A DNA stretch of 46,352 nucleotides from Gammaproteobacteria bacterium. Lineage in GTDB: Bacteria; Pseudomonadota; Gammaproteobacteria; Poriferisulfidales; Poriferisulfidaceae. The notes beneath the pieces are model-generated. The model had not been told where the DNA came from and did not search any database. It saw nothing but the letters and a program-made list of their open reading frames with translations. The DNA lies in the NCBI GenBank assembly GCA_026713705.1, contig JAPONY010000026.1, forward strand, positions 1-46,352, given 5' to 3'. How positions within the stretch are numbered: position 1 is the stretch's first letter; every line of letters begins with the position of its first letter. This document shows positions 1,991 to 41,507 of the stretch, one piece after another. The position numbers were made by a program, and so were the translations under genes.

Positions 1991-3322
1991 CTAGACGTTC
2001 GCGGCGATCGAGTCAGCGATGGATTGCGCCAGGGCTTCGACCCTTCCGTGATCCTCTCCCTCTACCATGACGCGCAGCACCGGTTCCGTTCCGGAGGGGC
2101 GCAGGAGCACCCGGCCGCGCTCGCCCAGTTCGTCGCACGCGTCCTTCACGGCTGCGTCCGTGGCGGGACCCGGCGCATGGTCGCGCGGGCAGTGCACGTT
2201 GATCATGGTTTGCGGATATTTCCGAAGATCCGCGCGTGCCTGGCATAGAGACAGGTCGAGAATGTGCAGCGCTTCCAGCGTCTGCAGCGCCGCGACCATC
2301 GCATCGCCGGTGCAGGCCCGGTCGCGGCAGATGATGTGGCCGGAGGTCTCCCCGCCGAGCTGCCAGTCCCGGGCGAGCAGTTGTTCCTGGACGTAGCGAT
2401 CCCCGACCGCGGCCCGCTCGAACGGGATGCCCAGGGATGCGAGCGCCTGTTCCAGCCCCAGGTTGCTCATTTGGGTGCCGATCACGCCGCCGCGCAAGGA
2501 GTCCTGGGCCTGCCTGGCGCGGGCAATGACGTACAGAAGGTCGTCTCCATCCACGATTTCTCCTTCCTCGTCGACCATGATCAGGCGATCGGCGTCGCCG
2601 TCCACGGCCAACCCGAGAGTGGCATGGTGCTGGCGGACTTGGGCACGGACATATTCCGGGCAGGTTGCGCCGCACCCGTCGTTGATGTTCGTCCCGTCGG
2701 GTTCGACGCCGACGGCCACCACGTCGGCTCCCAGTTCCTCGAACAGTTTCGGCGCAAGCTGGTAGGCGGCACCGTGTGCGCAGTCGACCAGAAGGCGCAG
2801 GCCGTCGAGGCGGAATCCCTCGGGCACGGTGCCCTTGCAGAAATCAAGGTAGCGGCGCCCAGCGTCATTGATCCGGCGAGCCTTGCCAGGCAGCGACTGG
2901 GGGTCGATGTCCATCGGCTCCTCGAGCTCCGCCTCGATGCGCTGCTCGATCTCGTCGGGCAGTTTGGCGCCGTCCGTGTCGAACAGCTTGATGCCGTTGT
3001 CGTAGTGCGGGTTGTGCGAGGCGCTGATGACGATGCCAGCACAGGCATCAAGTTCGCGGGTCAGTTGGGCGATGGCGGGGGTCGGCTGCGGGCCCAGCAG
3101 CAGGACATTGACGCCGGCCGCGGACAGGCCGGCTTCCAACGCCGATTCGAACATATAGCCGGAGCGGCGGGTGTCCTTGCCGATCAGGATCCGGGGAGTT
3201 CCGAACTCGCGCCCGAGCACGCGCCCGATGGCCCAGCCCAGGCGCAGCACGAAATCCGGGGTCATCGGGCTGATTCCAACCCGGCCCCGAATTCCATCAG
3301 TTCCGAAATAAGTGCGGGACAT
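1991..3322 (-). CDS. glmM: Phosphoglucosamine mutase
   Basis: Converts glucosamine 6-phosphate to glucosamine 1-phosphate, feeding UDP-GlcNAc for peptidoglycan and lipopolysaccharide. The 443-residue length fits GlmM. Landmarks: N-terminal YFGTDGIRGRVG; the active-site serine loop ISASHNP with phospho-Ser102; the Mg-binding loop VDGDADR; the sugar-binding GGETSGHI; and the phosphate-binding RPSGTEPVLRVM near the C-terminus. It lies only 22 bp after ftsH on the same strand and is probably read from the ftsH promoter. In many gammaproteobacteria folP sits between these two genes; here nothing does. Confidence 0.96.
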   Translation of the reverse strand: MSRTYFGTDGIRGRVGISPMTPDFVLRLGWAIGRVLGREFGTPRILIGKDTRRSGYMFESALEAGLSAAGVNVLLLGPQPTPAIAQLTRELDACAGIVISASHNPHYDNGIKLFDTDGAKLPDEIEQRIEAELEEPMDIDPQSLPGKARRINDAGRRYLDFCKGTVPEGFRLDGLRLLVDCAHGAAYQLAPKLFEELGADVVAVGVEPDGTNINDGCGATCPEYVRAQVRQHHATLGLAVDGDADRLIMVDEEGEIVDGDDLLYVIARARQAQDSLRGGVIGTQMSNLGLEQALASLGIPFERAAVGDRYVQEQLLARDWQLGGETSGHIICRDRACTGDAMVAALQTLEALHILDLSLCQARADLRKYPQTMINVHCPRDHAPGPATDAAVKDACDELGERGRVLLRPSGTEPVLRVMVEGEDHGRVEALAQSIADSIAANV

Positions 3323-3344: not shown

Positions 3345-5276
3345 TCAGTGCTGTTCGGCGGCTCCGCCGATCGGGGAATCCGTACTTTTCGCCTTTTTGG
3401 AATGCTGGCCCGCGTCTGCGCTCGAGTCGCCGTCCGGCGTGTTGTCTTCCCAGTCCTGGGGCGGACGAACCGGCTGGTCGGCCATGATGTCGTTGATCTG
3501 CTCGCCGTCGATCGTCTCGTACTTGATCAGGGCCTCGGCCATGCTGTGCAGCCTTTCGAGGTTGCTGGTCAGGATCTCGCGTGCACGCTCGTAGTTGCGG
3601 TCGATGATGCAGCGCACTTCCTCGTCGATTGCCCGGGCCGTCCGGTCGGACAGGGTCTTGTGCTGGGTCACGGAGTGGCCGAGGAACACCTCGCCGGCCT
3701 CTTCGCTGTAGGCCAGCGGGCCCATCTTGTCGGACAATCCCCACTTGGTGACCATGTTGCGGGCCAGTTCGGTGGCGCGTTCGATGTCGTTCTGCGCTCC
3801 GGTGGTGACCTTCTCTCCGCCGAAAATGATTTCCTCGGCCAGCCGGCCCCCGTACAGGGTGCAGATCATGCTCTCCAGCCGCTGCCGGGTGTTGCTGTAG
3901 CGGTCGTCCTCCGGCAGGAACATGGTCAAGCCGAGCGCCCGTCCGCGCGGGATGATGGTGACCTTGTGCACCGGATCGTGCTCGGGGACGAGGCGGCCGA
4001 TGATCGCATGGCCGGACTCGTGGTAGGCGGTGAGACGCTTCTCCTCTTCGCTCATCACCATGGAACGGCGTTCCGATCCCATCATGATCTTGTCCTTGGC
4101 GTACTCGAAGTCCTGCATGTCCACCTGCTTCTTGTTGGTACGCGCCGCATACAGGGCTGCTTCGTTGACCAGGTTCGCGAGGTCGGCGCCGGAGAATCCC
4201 GGGGTTCCCCGGGCGATCACCTTGACCTTGACCTTCGAATGGGTCGGCACCTTGGCCATGTGCACCTTGAGAATCTGCTCCCGCCCGCGGATGTCCGGCA
4301 GCGGCACCACCACCTGGCGGTCGAAACGGCCGGGGCGCAGCAGGGCCGGGTCCAGCACGTCGGGGCGGTTGGTGGCAGCGATGACGATGGTGCCCTCGTT
4401 GCCCTCGAAGCCGTCCATTTCCACCAGCAACTGGTTGAGCGTCTGCTCCCGTTCGTCGTGGCCGCCGCCCAGCCCGGCGCCGCGATGGCGGCCCACCGCG
4501 TCGATCTCGTCGATGAAGATGATGCTCGGGCCGTGCTTCTTGGCCTGGTTGAACATGTCGCGCACTCGCGAAGCGCCCACGCCGACGAACATCTCGACGA
4601 AGTCGGAGCCGGAGATGCTGAAGAACGGCACCTTGGCCTCGCCGGCGATCGCCCGGGCCAGCAGGGTCTTGCCGGTTCCCGGCGAGCCGACCATCAGCAC
4701 GCCGCGCGGGATCTTCCCGCCGAGTTTCTGGAATTTTTCCGGGTCCCGCAGGAAGTCGACCAGTTCCTTGACCTCTTCCTTGGCCTCCTCAATGCCGGCG
4801 ACGTCCTTGAAGGTGACCTTGTTTTCGTCCTCGGACATCAGCCGCGCGCGGCTCTTGCCGAACGACAGCGCGCCGCGTCCCTGGCCGCCACCTTGCATCT
4901 GGCGCATGAAGAAGATCCACACCCCGATCAGCAGCAGCAGCGGGAACCAGTGGATCAGGAGTTCAAGAAACAGCGAGGGCTTTTCGCGCGGGGTGCCGGT
5001 GACCGCGATGTTGTTCGCCAGCAGGTCGTCCATCAGCTTGGGGTCTTGCAGGGCGGTGGTGGTGAACTCGCGGCCGTCGATCAGCGTCCCGGTGATGGTG
5101 CGCTGGTCCGGGTCGATGTTGACGGCACGGATCTGGCCGGATTTGATGTTGCTGATGAATTCGGAATAGGCCAGCGAGGTCGGCTGCTGCGTGACCGGGG
5201 CGAAGTTGTTGAACACGGACATCAGGACCGCGGCGATCGCGATCCACAGAATCAGGTTCTTCATCATGTTGCTCAT
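3345..5276 (-). CDS. ftsH: ATP-dependent zinc metalloprotease FtsH
   Basis: Membrane-anchored AAA+ protease that degrades misfolded membrane proteins and regulators such as LpxC and the heat-shock sigma factor in E. coli. The 643 residues show two N-terminal membrane helices (about 4-22 and 102-124) around a periplasmic domain, the AAA module with Walker A GSPGTGKT (197-204), Walker B IIFIDEID (252-259), the second region of homology (about 301-320), and the zinc-protease motif HESGH (419-423). The C-terminal tail is polar. A heat-shock-like promoter lies upstream. glmM follows closely, without folP between them. Confidence 0.97.
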
Positions 5277-36767: not shown

Positions 36768-37742
36768 TCAGGGCTCCGGCAGCCGCGCCACCAATTCCGC
36801 CAGAGGCTGCAGGGACGGGTAGCGGGCGCAGACGTCCCGGACGTAGCCCAGGACTCGGGGCACGTCCAGCATGAAGTAGGACTTGCCGTCCCGATGGCAT
36901 AGCCGGGCGAAGATCCCGACCGCCTTCAGGTGGCGTTGCACCCCCATCCAGTCGAACCATTCCAGGAAAAGTCCGGAATCTACATTTTCGTCGAGGATGC
37001 CTTGCTTCCGGGCACGCTGCCGATACTGTTCCACCCAGCCCTGGACTCGGTCGTCGGGCCAGGCGATGTAGCAGTCCCGCAGCAGGGAGACCAGGTCGTA
37101 GGTCACCGGCCCCCACATCGCGTCCTGATGGTCGATGATGCCGGGGTTGGGCTCGGTCACCATCAAGTTCCGGGAGTGGTAGTCGCGGTGGACTACGACA
37201 CATGGCTGCTCCAGGGCGCGGTTGACCAGCAACTGCCAGACGGTCTCGATCATGAGTCGGTCCTCATGGCTCGACTCCCATCCGAGATGCCGGCCGAGGT
37301 ACCAGTCAGTGAACCGGTCAAGCTCCAGGCGCAATTGCTTCGCGTCGTACGGCGGAAGCGGTCCGCGTGGCAGCATCTGGATGCGCAGCAGGGCATCGAG
37401 GGCGTCGCCGTATAGGGAGTCCGCAGACTCTTCGCTCAGGTTCGGAAGATACTGTTCGTCTCCGAGGTCTTCGAGCAGGAGGAAGCCGTCTGCATGGTTT
37501 TCCGCCTGGACTTCCGGGGCATGCACGCCGGCTTTGCGCAGGTGCGTATTGGCAGTCAGGAAAGGCTCCAGCGGTTCGTGTTCCGGAGGGGCGTCCATGG
37601 CGATCCGGGTGGGGTCCGTGCCGTGCACGCGGAAATAGCGGCGAAAACTGGCATCGCCCGCCACCGGGCGCAATTCCAGTTTTGGGATTTGCAGGGCCTG
37701 GCATACCCAGTCCCGTAGCTGTTCCTGTCGTGAATCTTCCAT
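36768..37742 (-). CDS. amgK: Anomeric MurNAc/GlcNAc kinase
   Basis: Phosphorylates MurNAc or GlcNAc at C1, first of the AmgK-MurU recycling pair. From ATG 37742 (MEDSRQEQL) it has 324 residues; upstream frame to 37820 is not typical. It is an aminoglycoside-phosphotransferase fold: [11 protein letters not shown], the catalytic [13 protein letters not shown] and the metal-binding [11 protein letters not shown]. The upstream 94 bp run into the left end of the restriction-modification element. Confidence 0.93.
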
Positions 37743-37827
37743 AGCGGAGACGGAGAAGATCGGGCGCGTATGTGCGGTGCTAGGGTTAGAGCCTTGTCGT
37801 TGCTGGCTGTTCGACACCACGTAATAA

Positions 37828-37836
37828 AAACGAAAG
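37828..37836. repeat. Left copy of 9-bp direct repeat (candidate target duplication)
   Basis: AAACGAAAG directly outside the left GGGA end; the identical nine bases lie at 40215-40223 directly outside the right end. Confidence 0.6.
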
Positions 37837-37842
37837 GGGATT

Positions 37843-37869
37843 AGCGATTAGTTGACAAACCGGATTTCA
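37843..37869 (+). repeat. Left terminal inverted repeat, 27 bp
   Basis: Begins AGCGATTAGTTGACAAACCG and ends GATTTCA; its exact reverse complement is found at 40179-40205. A short outer part (GGGATT here, GGGAATTAT on the right) is partly shared. The repeat holds a TTGACA, a perfect -35 box pointing inward. It also supplies the stop codon of the small gene at 37867. Confidence 0.9.
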
Positions 37870-38031
37870 GACTGTCCTCAATCCGGCCTTTCCCTTACGG
37901 TCAACCCGCAGTCGGAACTTTCTTTTCAGATCGGCTTTGGTGAACTTCGGATCCTTGTCGGGAGCCGGGCCCATGCCGAGCAGGGCACGGGTCGCCTTGT
38001 CGAGTTTCGCCTGTGTTCTATCTCGCTTCAT
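37867..38031 (-). CDS. Small basic protein coupled to the restriction gene
   Basis: A 54-codon frame starting MKRDRTQAKLDKATRALLG; its ATG overlaps the stop of the restriction gene (ATGA), the tight coupling typical of real genes in operons. The product is strongly basic (many Lys/Arg) without recognised motifs. Its stop codon falls in the left inverted repeat. I do not recognise it. It may help regulate or bind DNA or RNA, or be a chance frame; the coupling favours the former. Confidence 0.45.
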   Translation of the reverse strand: MKRDRTQAKLDKATRALLGMGPAPDKDPKFTKADLKRKFRLRVDRKGKAGLRTV

Positions 38032-39125
38032 TGTTCGTTCGCAACTTGGTCCCAAGCCATTTTTGTCTCGTAGCCTATGTCATCATCCTTCTCCAGCATA
38101 GAGACAAAGTTTTCGATGAAATCATCTGTGTTGGATACAAGCCTCAAATAATATTTCAAGGTGGCAGCAACGCCATTTACTATGATCTCGCATCCGTGAT
38201 TGATTCTGGCATCTGTGGTTAGTTTGGTGATTTCTTCTATGTCATTCAGAATTTCATTCGTACTCAAGATGTAATACCGCTTCACGGAAGTCCTTTTGAC
38301 CTTTTCAATGGTGGATGAAACGAGATCAGGGTTGATTTGGATGCCGTGCTTGATTTCAACCGCCTCGACAATCTTGGAATCATGCTGAAGGTCAATGTCT
38401 CCGTGTCGCCCCGTTTTCTGGTCTGCAGCATTATGCGGAAGGAGGGGTAGCAGGTGATGATCTCTGTACCTTCCGACTTCCTTTACAAGACTCGTATATG
38501 CGGCAAATACAGCAATAACCGGAACTCTGGATAGCCCGGATGACTTCTGGCTCCAAAGTTTCTCGATCAATGATACAACTGAACCGATTGATTTATTCTT
38601 TGGCCTCGACAGGGCGATGTTTTGAGACCTTTCACGGAGCGAGACCAGTTGGCTGAATGTTTCTTTTAAGCACTCTCTGGCAAGTTCTGATTTCTGCTCA
38701 ACCTGATCTATCAGGCGAAGGAAATCATCTTTGATGATTGCTGGTTTGATTTTTCCCGGATAGTCCAAAGTGTAGGGTGATGCTTGCTCAAGGCTTCTGG
38801 TCAGCCATCCAGACCCACTGGCCATATGAGGAAAATCGTTATCCCGAAGAAATGGGGTTACATGTCTGCTATCAAGGCCACGTCCAGAAAACCCACCCGG
38901 CATGTTGGCCTGATGGAATCTTACATCCTGATCTGGCTTCATTACTTTCTTCACTAGCAAAGTTATCAACACAGAAAGAACGCCGATGTTTTCCCCGGCT
39001 TCGACTCTGGCCATAATGCGGTCAATCCTGTCCAAGTCCTCTTGTTGCAAAAGAGACCCTTCCCTGTTATCAGTTTGCAAATGACTCAACGTGTCTTGTA
39101 AGACTCGTGTGGCATCATGCGGCAT
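38028..39125 (-). CDS. Type II restriction endonuclease (PD-(D/E)xK)
   Basis: 365 residues, overlapping the methyltransferase gene by 11 nt. A conserved N-terminal block (PGGFSGRGLDSRHVTPFLRD, then SGSGWLTRSLEQ and YTLDYPGKI) is shared among several type II enzymes and recalls the SacI-family domain, though I cannot confirm the subfamily. The likely catalytic site is HGDIDLQH (Asp243, Asp245) followed by VEAVEIKHG (Glu257, Lys259), a PD-(D/E)xK arrangement. The recognition sequence is unknown. GC content is low compared with the core. Confidence 0.8.
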   Translation of the reverse strand: MPHDATRVLQDTLSHLQTDNREGSLLQQEDLDRIDRIMARVEAGENIGVLSVLITLLVKKVMKPDQDVRFHQANMPGGFSGRGLDSRHVTPFLRDNDFPHMASGSGWLTRSLEQASPYTLDYPGKIKPAIIKDDFLRLIDQVEQKSELARECLKETFSQLVSLRERSQNIALSRPKNKSIGSVVSLIEKLWSQKSSGLSRVPVIAVFAAYTSLVKEVGRYRDHHLLPLLPHNAADQKTGRHGDIDLQHDSKIVEAVEIKHGIQINPDLVSSTIEKVKRTSVKRYYILSTNEILNDIEEITKLTTDARINHGCEIIVNGVAATLKYYLRLVSNTDDFIENFVSMLEKDDDIGYETKMAWDQVANEQ

Positions 39126-40125
39126 GTTTGCACTCCTTTTTTACTTCGCTAATGCGTTCCATAGCAGAGACACAATAATCCGGGTCTATGTCAATTCCCA
39201 GATAATGTCGGTTCTCAATGATGGCGGCAACGGCAGTAGTTCCACTCCCGATGTAGGGGTCAATTACTAGCCCTTTATTCGGTGATAGAAGGCGGATCAT
39301 CTCCTCGATGATCTCTAGCGGGAATATGGCTGTATGCACATTTCCCGGCAGGGATTCTACTTTAGATTCGATCACGTCCCGCTTCATTTTCTCTCCCTTG
39401 AGCCGGATGATTGTGAATCCCTTTTTGTCCATTTGACCCTTCCTTCCTCCTTCTTGCCCGCCAAAAGCCTCCGCATGAATGCCTTTTATCTTCATCCTGA
39501 AACTATGGATTTTTCGGTCATGCACTTCTGCTATTACTTCATCCAATTCACGATGAGCTAACTGCTTCTGAATTTCTGAAAGGATGCCAGAGCCATTAAT
39601 TAGTTCTCGGTATTTCTGGCCCAACTTTGGTGTTGGAGTTGCTTGCTCCGACTCTTGTTCGACCTGGCAGAAATTCTTGCGGTCGTAGTAGTAATCATTC
39701 GTCACCGCGAAATGGAAGAATGGTTCTGTACTTGACACAAGCCTTCGGTCAAACTGGCGCGGGGTTGGGTTCCTCTTCACCCAAGTAATTTCATTCACTA
39801 ACTTCACAGGGAACCTGTCACAAGCCATCGTTGCGAATCGGAATGGAAGTAACAGCAAAGACCCATTCAAGTATTTGTCGCCGATGTTATATACGATGTT
39901 GCCTGTTGGCTTTATAACCCGGACACATTCCGTAAAGGTTTCAAGCAGAGCCTCAAGGTAGTATTCAGGCGTTCGTTCCTGCCCGACACCCAAACCGCTA
40001 TCGTTGTATGTCCTCTGTAAATAATATGGGGGTGAAGTGATTATCAGATCCGCACATTGGTCCGGTAGTTGTTTTAGCAACGTGGTAGCGTCGCCACACT
40101 GGATCGAATCCAGCACGTTTTTCAT
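39115..40125 (-). CDS. Type II DNA methyltransferase (beta class, N4-cytosine or N6-adenine)
   Basis: 336 residues. The catalytic motif IITSPPYY (residues 28-35) comes before the SAM-binding motif VIDPYIGSGTTAVAA (about 287-301), the order of the beta class; SPPY is more usual for N4-cytosine enzymes. A middle region (about 170-260) is the target-recognition part. The gene has a good AAGGAA ribosome-binding site at 40138-40133 and is the first in the cassette, so methylation precedes restriction. A TAAAAT at 40155-40150 may be its -10 box. Confidence 0.9.
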   Translation of the reverse strand: MKNVLDSIQCGDATTLLKQLPDQCADLIITSPPYYLQRTYNDSGLGVGQERTPEYYLEALLETFTECVRVIKPTGNIVYNIGDKYLNGSLLLLPFRFATMACDRFPVKLVNEITWVKRNPTPRQFDRRLVSSTEPFFHFAVTNDYYYDRKNFCQVEQESEQATPTPKLGQKYRELINGSGILSEIQKQLAHRELDEVIAEVHDRKIHSFRMKIKGIHAEAFGGQEGGRKGQMDKKGFTIIRLKGEKMKRDVIESKVESLPGNVHTAIFPLEIIEEMIRLLSPNKGLVIDPYIGSGTTAVAAIIENRHYLGIDIDPDYCVSAMERISEVKKECKHAA

Positions 40126-40178
40126 GCCGTGAGTTCCTTGTAGGTGATGATTTTACCCGTCATGCTACTAGTTTTGGA

Positions 40179-40205
40179 TGAAATCCGGTTTGTCAACTAA
40201 TCGCT
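40179..40205 (-). repeat. Right terminal inverted repeat, 27 bp
   Basis: Exact reverse complement of 37843-37869. Outside it the sequence continues ATAATTCCC to the right-hand AAACGAAAG. It carries an inward TTGACA upstream of the methyltransferase gene. Confidence 0.9.
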
Positions 40206-40214
40206 ATAATTCCC

Positions 40215-40223
40215 AAACGAAAG
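40215..40223. repeat. Right copy of 9-bp direct repeat (candidate target duplication)
   Basis: AAACGAAAG directly outside the right end of the element, identical to 37828-37836. From here to 40423 no gene is seen; that stretch is non-coding DNA between the element and the next promoter. Confidence 0.6.
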
Positions 40224-40423: not shown

Positions 40424-40448
40424 GGTACAATCGTACCCATTATGGGTA
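40424..40448 (+). promoter_or_regulatory. Overlapping palindromes at promoter and start codon of the nucleotidyltransferase gene
   Basis: GGTAC-AATC-GTACC (40424-40437) and TACCCA-TTA-TGGGTA (40434-40448) are perfect inverted repeats that overlap. TACAAT (40426-40431) can act as -10, which would put the RNA start within a few bases of the ATG at 40442. There is no ribosome-binding site, so the message may be leaderless and its start codon lies inside an operator. Confidence 0.5.
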
Positions 40449-41107
40449 TATCTTCGCCGGCAGACCTGTCGCCACCGCCTCGCAGCAAGGCTGCTGCGGA
40501 ATGCCTTGGCACACCCACTAGTCTTGCCGATGCGCTGTTCACCACAACCCAACAGAGAGTTTTGGCTCTGCTTTTCGGTCAGCCTGATCGCAGCTTTTAC
40601 ACCCAAGAACTGATCGGGCTGACCGGCTCCGGCTCCGGAGCGGTGCAGCGCGAACTTCAGCGCTTGACTTCCAGCGGCCTGGTCAAGATGACCCCGATCG
40701 GGGCGCAGAAACACTACCAATCCAACTCCGATTGCCCAGTATTTCAAGAGCTTGTAGGCATTACACGAAAAACGGTTGCGATGGCGGAACCGATTCGGCA
40801 GGCGCTGAACCCACTCGCCGACCGCATTAGGCTGGCCATGATTTACGGGTCTGTCGCGAGGAGAACGGATACAGCGGCGAGCGACATCGACCTGCTTGTC
40901 GTCGCTGACGACCTGTTGTTGGAAGACCTCTTTACCGCGCTCGCGCCGGTAGAGGCACGCTTGGATCGTCAGATCAATCCCATGCTTTATACAGCAGAAG
41001 AGTTCGACTCCCGCCGGTCGGCCCAAAGCCCGTTTTTGTCCCGCGTGTTTGCCAGCGAATACCTGGTTCTTATTGGAGATGAAAATGACGCACCCGAAGC
41101 TCGATAA
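40442..41107 (+). CDS. Regulator fused to MNT-type nucleotidyltransferase (antitoxin of HEPN/MNT module)
   Basis: 221 residues. The N-terminal part (TTTQQRVLALLFGQPDRSFYTQELIGLTG...VQRELQRLTSSGLV) is a winged helix-turn-helix; the C-terminal part is a minimal nucleotidyltransferase with IYGSVARRTDTAASDIDLLVV, the GSxxxxxxSDIDL catalytic pattern. MNT antitoxins AMPylate their HEPN partner to silence it. The HEPN gene overlaps its 3' end by 23 nt. The HTH makes it a likely self-regulator acting on the palindromes at its start. Confidence 0.8.
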   Translation: MGISSPADLSPPPRSKAAAECLGTPTSLADALFTTTQQRVLALLFGQPDRSFYTQELIGLTGSGSGAVQRELQRLTSSGLVKMTPIGAQKHYQSNSDCPVFQELVGITRKTVAMAEPIRQALNPLADRIRLAMIYGSVARRTDTAASDIDLLVVADDLLLEDLFTALAPVEARLDRQINPMLYTAEEFDSRRSAQSPFLSRVFASEYLVLIGDENDAPEAR

Positions 41108-41507
41108 CCGGGTACGCATCGGGCAACTCAAGGCAGAGCCGGCTGCAGATGCCGAAATTAAGGGATTGCTGTGCTTGGGCCAGCGTCGCCTCGACGACGC
41201 CCAGCGACAGGAGTTGAGTTTGGAGAGTCGCTTTGATCTCAGTTACAACGCGGCCCATGCGCTTGCGCTCTTGGCTTTGCGGATTCATGGCTACCGTTCC
41301 GATTCGCGCTACCTGGTGTTCCAATGCCTTCAGCATACTGTCGATTTGCCTACAGAACAGTGGCGAGTGCTGGATTATGCTCACCGCAGACGAAATTCTG
41401 CCGAGTATGAAGGGGAATTGAATGTGGACAAGCAGTTCCTTGCCACATTGATAAAAGTGGCGCAAGAAGTCGCGACGCGCGTGGGTCGCCTGATCGCGCA
41501 ACGATGA
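41085..41507 (+). CDS. HEPN-domain protein (putative toxin)
   Basis: 140 residues from ATG 41085, which has GGAG six bases upstream; ATG 41079 is an alternative. The helical pattern ([36 protein letters not shown] and [15 protein letters not shown]) fits HEPN proteins that pair with nucleotidyltransferases. The usual RxxxxH ribonuclease motif is not obvious; the RRRNSAEY segment is where it would be expected. So the toxin role is inferred from the family and the pairing. Confidence 0.7.

Follow-up and report, generated by a model that had tools for sequence, protein, structure and literature searches.

Results

An insertion between amgK and an MNT/HEPN-like pair

The DNA analysed here, a stretch of 46,352 nucleotides referred to as the window, lies on contig C26; the draft genome to which it belongs (the host genome in what follows) is 1.94 Mb in size. 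At 37836-40214 it holds a bounded 2.38-kb insertion with near-perfect terminal inverted repeats (TIRs) and a short target duplication. The insertion sits between amgK and an MNT/HEPN-like pair of genes, and its GC content is 46.8%, compared to 64-65% in the flanks. Three reading frames lie between the ends, and they are those that the sequence-only reading of this DNA had named, namely a methyltransferase (MTase), a restriction enzyme (REase), which is putative, and a small gene (Table 1).

Table 1. Features of the element and its surroundings. Coordinates are those of the window unless another locus is named.
Feature	Coordinates	Strand	Remarks
amgK	36768-37820	-	
Left target-site duplication	37828-37835		AAACGAAA; the 9-mer AAACGAAAG, to 37836, fits too; single in the G004 empty site
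Left TIR	37836-37869	+	GGGGATTAGCGATTAGTTGACAAACCGGATTTCA; IS1595-type; 2-nt gap relative to the right end
Small basic protein gene, 54 aa, last in operon	37867-38031	-	Stop codon inside the left TIR
Putative Type II restriction endonuclease, 365 aa	38028-39125	-	Motif GD-(I/V)-(E/D)...E-A-V-E-I-K
DNA methyltransferase, 336 aa, N6_N4_Mtase, beta-type	39115-40125	-	PF01555, E=4.6e-41; PADLOC MTase_II, 4.7e-52
IS1595 transposase C-terminus remnant, about 13-16 codons	40122-40169	-	...MTGKIITYKELTA, then stop; similarity score 24.4
Right TIR	40179-40214	-	GGGAATTATAGCGATTAGTTGACAAACCGGATTTCA; matrix score 23.6, top of 92,652 positions
Right target-site duplication	40215-40222		AAACGAAA; the 9-mer reaches 40223
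MNT/HEPN-like pair	40442-41507	+	PADLOC PDC-M05A/B
Small-gene copies	37867-38031; L094, 1843-1995; L128, 738-888; L129, about 4408-4580; L130, about 2979-3047		

The inverted arms, at 37842-37869 and 40179-40206, are 100% complementary. The sequence-only reading had described the ends as 27-bp perfect inverted repeats; the perfect complementarity of the arms stands, but their length is 28 nt and the tips are not identical. The left tip reads GGG(G)ATT-AGCG and the right tip GGGAATTATAGCG, a 2-3 nt indel making the left TIR tip the shorter of the two. Immediately flanking both ends of the element is the 9-mer AAACGAAAG (37828-37836 and 40215-40223), which has exactly two copies in the window compared to 0.2 expected, a count of two being reached in 4 of 100 shuffles. 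All nine bases had been taken for the target duplication. A duplication does flank both ends; however, the true one is likely the 8-bp AAACGAAA, with the ninth G a coincidental match to the left tip GGGG, because all seven IS1595 transposons of the genus that were dissected (see below) fit 8 bp.

As a check on the insertion, the sequence-only reading had named a relative whose empty site holds one copy of the target, and such a site is present. In G004, another species of the same genus whose genome is one contig (most of the genomes compared are drafts), the flanks meet at one AAACGAAAG and nothing is inserted (L020, about 1743-1766). The junction reads ...CAATAAAAACGAAAGCAGCCGAG..., and identity over the joined stretch is 88%. 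The corresponding intergenic region of G001-G003 has diverged too far for the site to be read. One explanation of the locus is that a restriction-modification (R-M) islet arrived otherwise, for example by recombination between conserved flanks, and is surrounded by inverted repeats through chance; other insertion routes are indeed frequent for R-M genes, according to PMC3031569. This explanation is refuted by the empty site with its single target copy, and it is extremely improbable given that perfect 28-nt arms, a target duplication and an exact empty site are combined with IS1595-type ends and a transposase remnant.

The MNT/HEPN-like pair adjoins the insertion. Sequence matching it is found at the same place in G001-G003, and G004 has a mechanosensitive-channel-like ORF there instead of the pair.

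The putative restriction-modification pair

The MTase carries catalytic and AdoMet motifs in the order TSPPY then DPYIGSGTT, which is that of the beta type, and is similar to M.PvuII-type structures. From this resemblance, its product is possibly m4C. Its 365-aa partner matched no Pfam or PADLOC family, and the AlphaFold model of the protein is of low confidence (mean pLDDT 41.6). The partner has a conserved D...E-x-K motif, and the close relatives examined adjoin, or are fused with, an MTase. L005 lies beside an N6/N4 methyltransferase, L006 lies beside an m5C methyltransferase, and L122, on the Staphylococcus epidermidis plasmid NZ_CP093209.1, is fused to an m5C methyltransferase. Because of the conserved motif and the MTase-linked relatives, the predicted identity of the partner as a restriction enzyme is likely. 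Weak relatives carry the SacI family annotation. We infer that the R-M pair is active. L122 itself is positioned between two IS257 copies, a layout like that of a composite transposon.

Ends of IS1595 type and a transposase remnant

Transposases of the IS1595 family (PF12762, NF033547) were found in five of the six genomes of the genus. Sixteen ends taken from autonomous IS1595 transposons of the genus served to build a position matrix. The right end of the element, GGGAATTATA...TTGACA, matches such ends in exact register; with the matrix it scores 23.6, which is the best of all window positions (runner-up 8.8) and falls inside the range of 16-36 obtained for true IS1595 ends that were left out. 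Its TTGACA falls at positions 19-24, where L092 (at its right end), L093, L094 and L099 have it too. The left end fits the register of the matrix after a 2-nt gap. The 10-mer GGGRATTATR has 70 sites in the six genomes, compared to 7 for the reversed control.

Between the right end and the MTase a peptide is encoded that reads ...SSMTGKIITYKELTA up to its stop codon and aligns with the C-terminal residues of IS1595 transposases (...AMVGKTITYRELTS in L092 and ...AMVGKTITYEELVS in L094, each followed by the stop). When 1119 stop-terminated peptides of the window were scored, the next best after this remnant reached 3.2. Seven of nine transposases of the genus, left out in turn, score 21.5-28.9, and the other two have divergent tails. 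The TGA of the remnant overlaps the ATG of the MTase by 4 nt (ATGA), as in intact elements; the transposase stop overlaps the start of the following reading frame in L086, L094 and L095, as annotated by ORF search. A C-terminal remnant with this ATGA overlap shows descent from a transposon with the order transposase-MTase-REase-small gene. The absence of a transposase claimed earlier is thus true of a working enzyme, but a C-terminal remnant persists.

Since the element has no DDE transposase gene (PF12762/NF033547), just the C-terminal remnant, we describe it as a derivative of the IS1595 family and not as a full autonomous member; what it has of the family are the terminal inverted repeats and the 8-bp target duplication. 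Its sequence places the element in an IS1595-family transposon lineage, as a member whose transposase has been deleted. A rival reading is that the element was built by a different IS family that has GGG ends and duplicates 8-9 bp, either ISKra4 or IS256. A 9-bp duplication and GGGA tips would suit these families, and the host does have an ISKra4 transposase. The ends of the host ISKra4, GGGTGTACGTCAGATTTTTGAGATT, are however unrelated to those of the element, IS256-type transposases (PF00872) were found in none of the six genomes of the genus, and the remnant matches IS1595. Both families were rejected as the source, and such an origin is very unlikely.

The host ISKra4 with these ends (L053, on C28) looks complete, and two more fragments lie on other contigs. 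Among the six genomes of the genus, ISKra4 was seen in the host only.

A small terminal gene conserved in the genus

The ATG of the small gene overlaps the REase stop. The small gene shares 53% identity with the terminal gene of L094 (G005:C81), a bounded transposon consisting of a transposase, a Type II MTase, a Type II REase and a small terminal gene, and the score was reached by none of 2000 shuffles. The element is also like L094 in the distance of 34 bp between the stop codon of the small gene and the left end, in the order MTase-REase-small gene and in the 8-bp duplication. Unlike the element, L094 retains its transposase, and the families of its MTase and REase differ from those of the element.

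With a profile built from these two small-gene sequences we searched 185 genomes and found five copies, all within the genus. All five run into an IS1595-type end, with the stop codon 34-37 bp from the tip, and the cargo upstream of the small gene varies among loci. In L086 and L089 the equivalent position (37 and 31 bp) is taken by a small gene from a different sequence group; its similarity to the window gene is not significant on its own, and only the position is alike. The window gene and its homologues may encode a factor of its own kind that acts in transposition or expression.

IS1595 transposons and TnpB cassettes of the genus

Seven IS1595 elements were bounded by end similarity and duplication (L086, L087, L088, L089, L091, L092 and L094). 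All of them fit a duplication of 8 bp, and their ends read, for example, GGGAATTATGTA, GGGGATTATATA or GGGAACTATATA. Four of the seven carry MTase or R-M cargo. In addition to L094 these are L086, with an MTase-HNH inside both ends, and L089 and L091, with an MTase whose long C-terminal domain is perhaps a nuclease. Two further loci are not bounded: at L090 an IIG-like protein is encoded near an IS1595 transposase, and at L095 (host genome C27, 1-5677) an MTase lies beside a frame-interrupted transposase. Outside the genus, a motif search of the loci examined found no MTase-like ORF adjoining an IS1595 transposase. The L095 block comprises an MTase, a possible REase, the interrupted transposase, a ResIII-type helicase and an MTase fragment; it closes with the end GGGAATTATAGTAAACG, and the opposite end is off the contig.

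TnpB units of about 1.3-1.4 kb with IS1595-type ends and no IS1595 transposase are scattered over several sites and several species of the genus. The duplication is perfect over 8 bp in L098 (G002:C2) and decayed in L099 and L100, and L100 has 24 of 24 end bases in common with the autonomous L086 of the same genome. Further TnpB copies at IS1595-type ends are L101, L106 (host genome C89), L112, L115 and L117. These transposase-less cassettes make movement in trans plausible for the R-M cassette. The TnpB they carry has a Cas12f1-like TNB domain, and its placement between IS1595 ends looks unusual.

Search for a helper element

The exact 28-nt arm was found neither a second time in the host genome nor in any other genome sampled, and a specific helper transposase was therefore not found. 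Searches for the arm gave no match in 185 relatives (18-mer, up to 1 mismatch) and just two single-sided matches, the control level, in 398 genomes of the phylum (22-mer, up to 3 mismatches). Among viral contigs with TAGTTGACAAACCGG there were 29 matches, none of them with a convincing partner end, and a plasmid search gave no relevant DNA match. The ends nearest to the arm are in G005, for example GGGAATTATCTAGATTAGTTGACAA, which adjoins the small gene on C151. The sequence-only reading had proposed, as a check, a search of the genome and its relatives for the 27-bp end and for an IS that has these ends and an intact transposase. At the level of the family this succeeded, as matching ends of IS1595 type occur in the genus together with intact transposases, but the exact arm was found nowhere else in the genomes sampled. 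The host assembly contains no intact IS1595 transposase, only one frame-interrupted copy and one fragment, so that current mobility of the element is doubtful.

Discussion

The element is very probably a non-autonomous IS1595-family transposon, derived by internal deletion from an autonomous ancestor; this interpretation is based on sequence comparison, and points against it are the single known copy of the element, the shorter left tip and the failure to find the exact arm in other sampled genomes. The sequence-only reading had proposed a defence cassette mobilised in trans, and this is partly supported: the IS ends, the target duplication, the lack of a working transposase and the empty site agree with it, and movement in trans is possible for this copy. 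The ancestor would have consisted of a transposase, an MTase, a REase and the small terminal gene between two TIRs, with short overlaps coupling the genes. A deletion extending from the right TIR to the last codons of the transposase would have removed the transposase and kept the ends and the R-M operon. The unit would have entered the gap that separates amgK from the following operon, most likely once the G004 lineage had branched off, duplicating 8 bp of target DNA. An IS1595 transposase from another copy could still mobilise the cassette. The R-M pair would restrict foreign DNA and may also help to retain the element, through the death of cells that lose it.

The chances that the transposase was lost before or after insertion are roughly even. 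In the first case, to which we assign close to an even chance, the element inserted as a mobile insertion cassette whose transposase was already gone, an IS1595 transposase acting in trans. This order of events agrees with the transposase-less TnpB cassettes of several sites and species, whose ends are of the same type, with the perfect duplication of L098 and with the end bases shared by L100 and the autonomous element of its genome. The identical 28-nt TIRs and the intact duplication of the window element also fit, and from them the insertion looks fairly recent. On the other hand, the element has one copy, no helper with the same ends was found, and bacterial transposases frequently prefer to act in cis. 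In the second case, somewhat short of an even chance, an autonomous transposase-MTase-REase-small gene transposon landed at the site and an internal deletion then removed the transposase. The C-terminal remnant with its ATGA overlap agrees with decay in place, and the other IS1595 copy of the host, on C27, also has a frame-interrupted transposase; the other transposase-less cassettes of the genus, however, suggest that units lacking a resident transposase do move.

IS1595-family transposons with passenger genes are known, such as tISCpe8 and MTnSag1 (PMC5704250), and the target duplication of ISApl4 is 8 bp (PMC12561309). Our element resembles them in its IS1595-type lineage, GGG tips, 8-bp duplication and passenger genes. 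It is unlike them in that its transposase is deleted to the last codons, its cargo is an R-M pair and its last gene is a small protein gene with the stop in the TIR. Mobile insertion cassettes, exemplified by mic-qnrS2 (PMC4444841), likewise have IS ends around passenger genes that replace the transposase, and the window element has this structure, with IS ends, passenger genes and no functional transposase. It differs from them in its IS1595-type ends and transposase remnant; judging from the TnpB cassettes of the genus, it may move in trans. Movement of R-M systems by IS elements is known for PaeR7I, with IS1/IS5 (PMC3031569), and for composite transposons. In these, too, an R-M pair is tied to transposition machinery, but the window element is one unit with its own short TIRs and involves no flanking IS pair or IS-mediated co-integration. 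The literature searched, which did not extend to the key review of the family, contained no description of IS1595 transposons with R-M passengers.

Although R-M genes are known to move, they were rare in plasmids and prophages in one survey (PMC4176335), and the vehicle of mobile R-M genes is therefore often unclear. In the present case a vehicle is legible base by base, from the ends, duplication, empty site and remnant to intact relatives with other R-M cargo, and it would represent one concrete route by which bacterial defence genes move between chromosomes. A broader proposal, which we put forward tentatively and consider rather less likely than not, is that one IS1595 lineage of the genus is a dedicated carrier of interchangeable R-M systems, with passengers slotted between the transposase and the conserved terminal small gene and with transposase-less versions moved in trans. 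If this is true, defence systems would spread as minimal cassettes. The genus offers a testable system in which defence genes would be swapped and spread by a small transposon, together with a conserved terminal gene.
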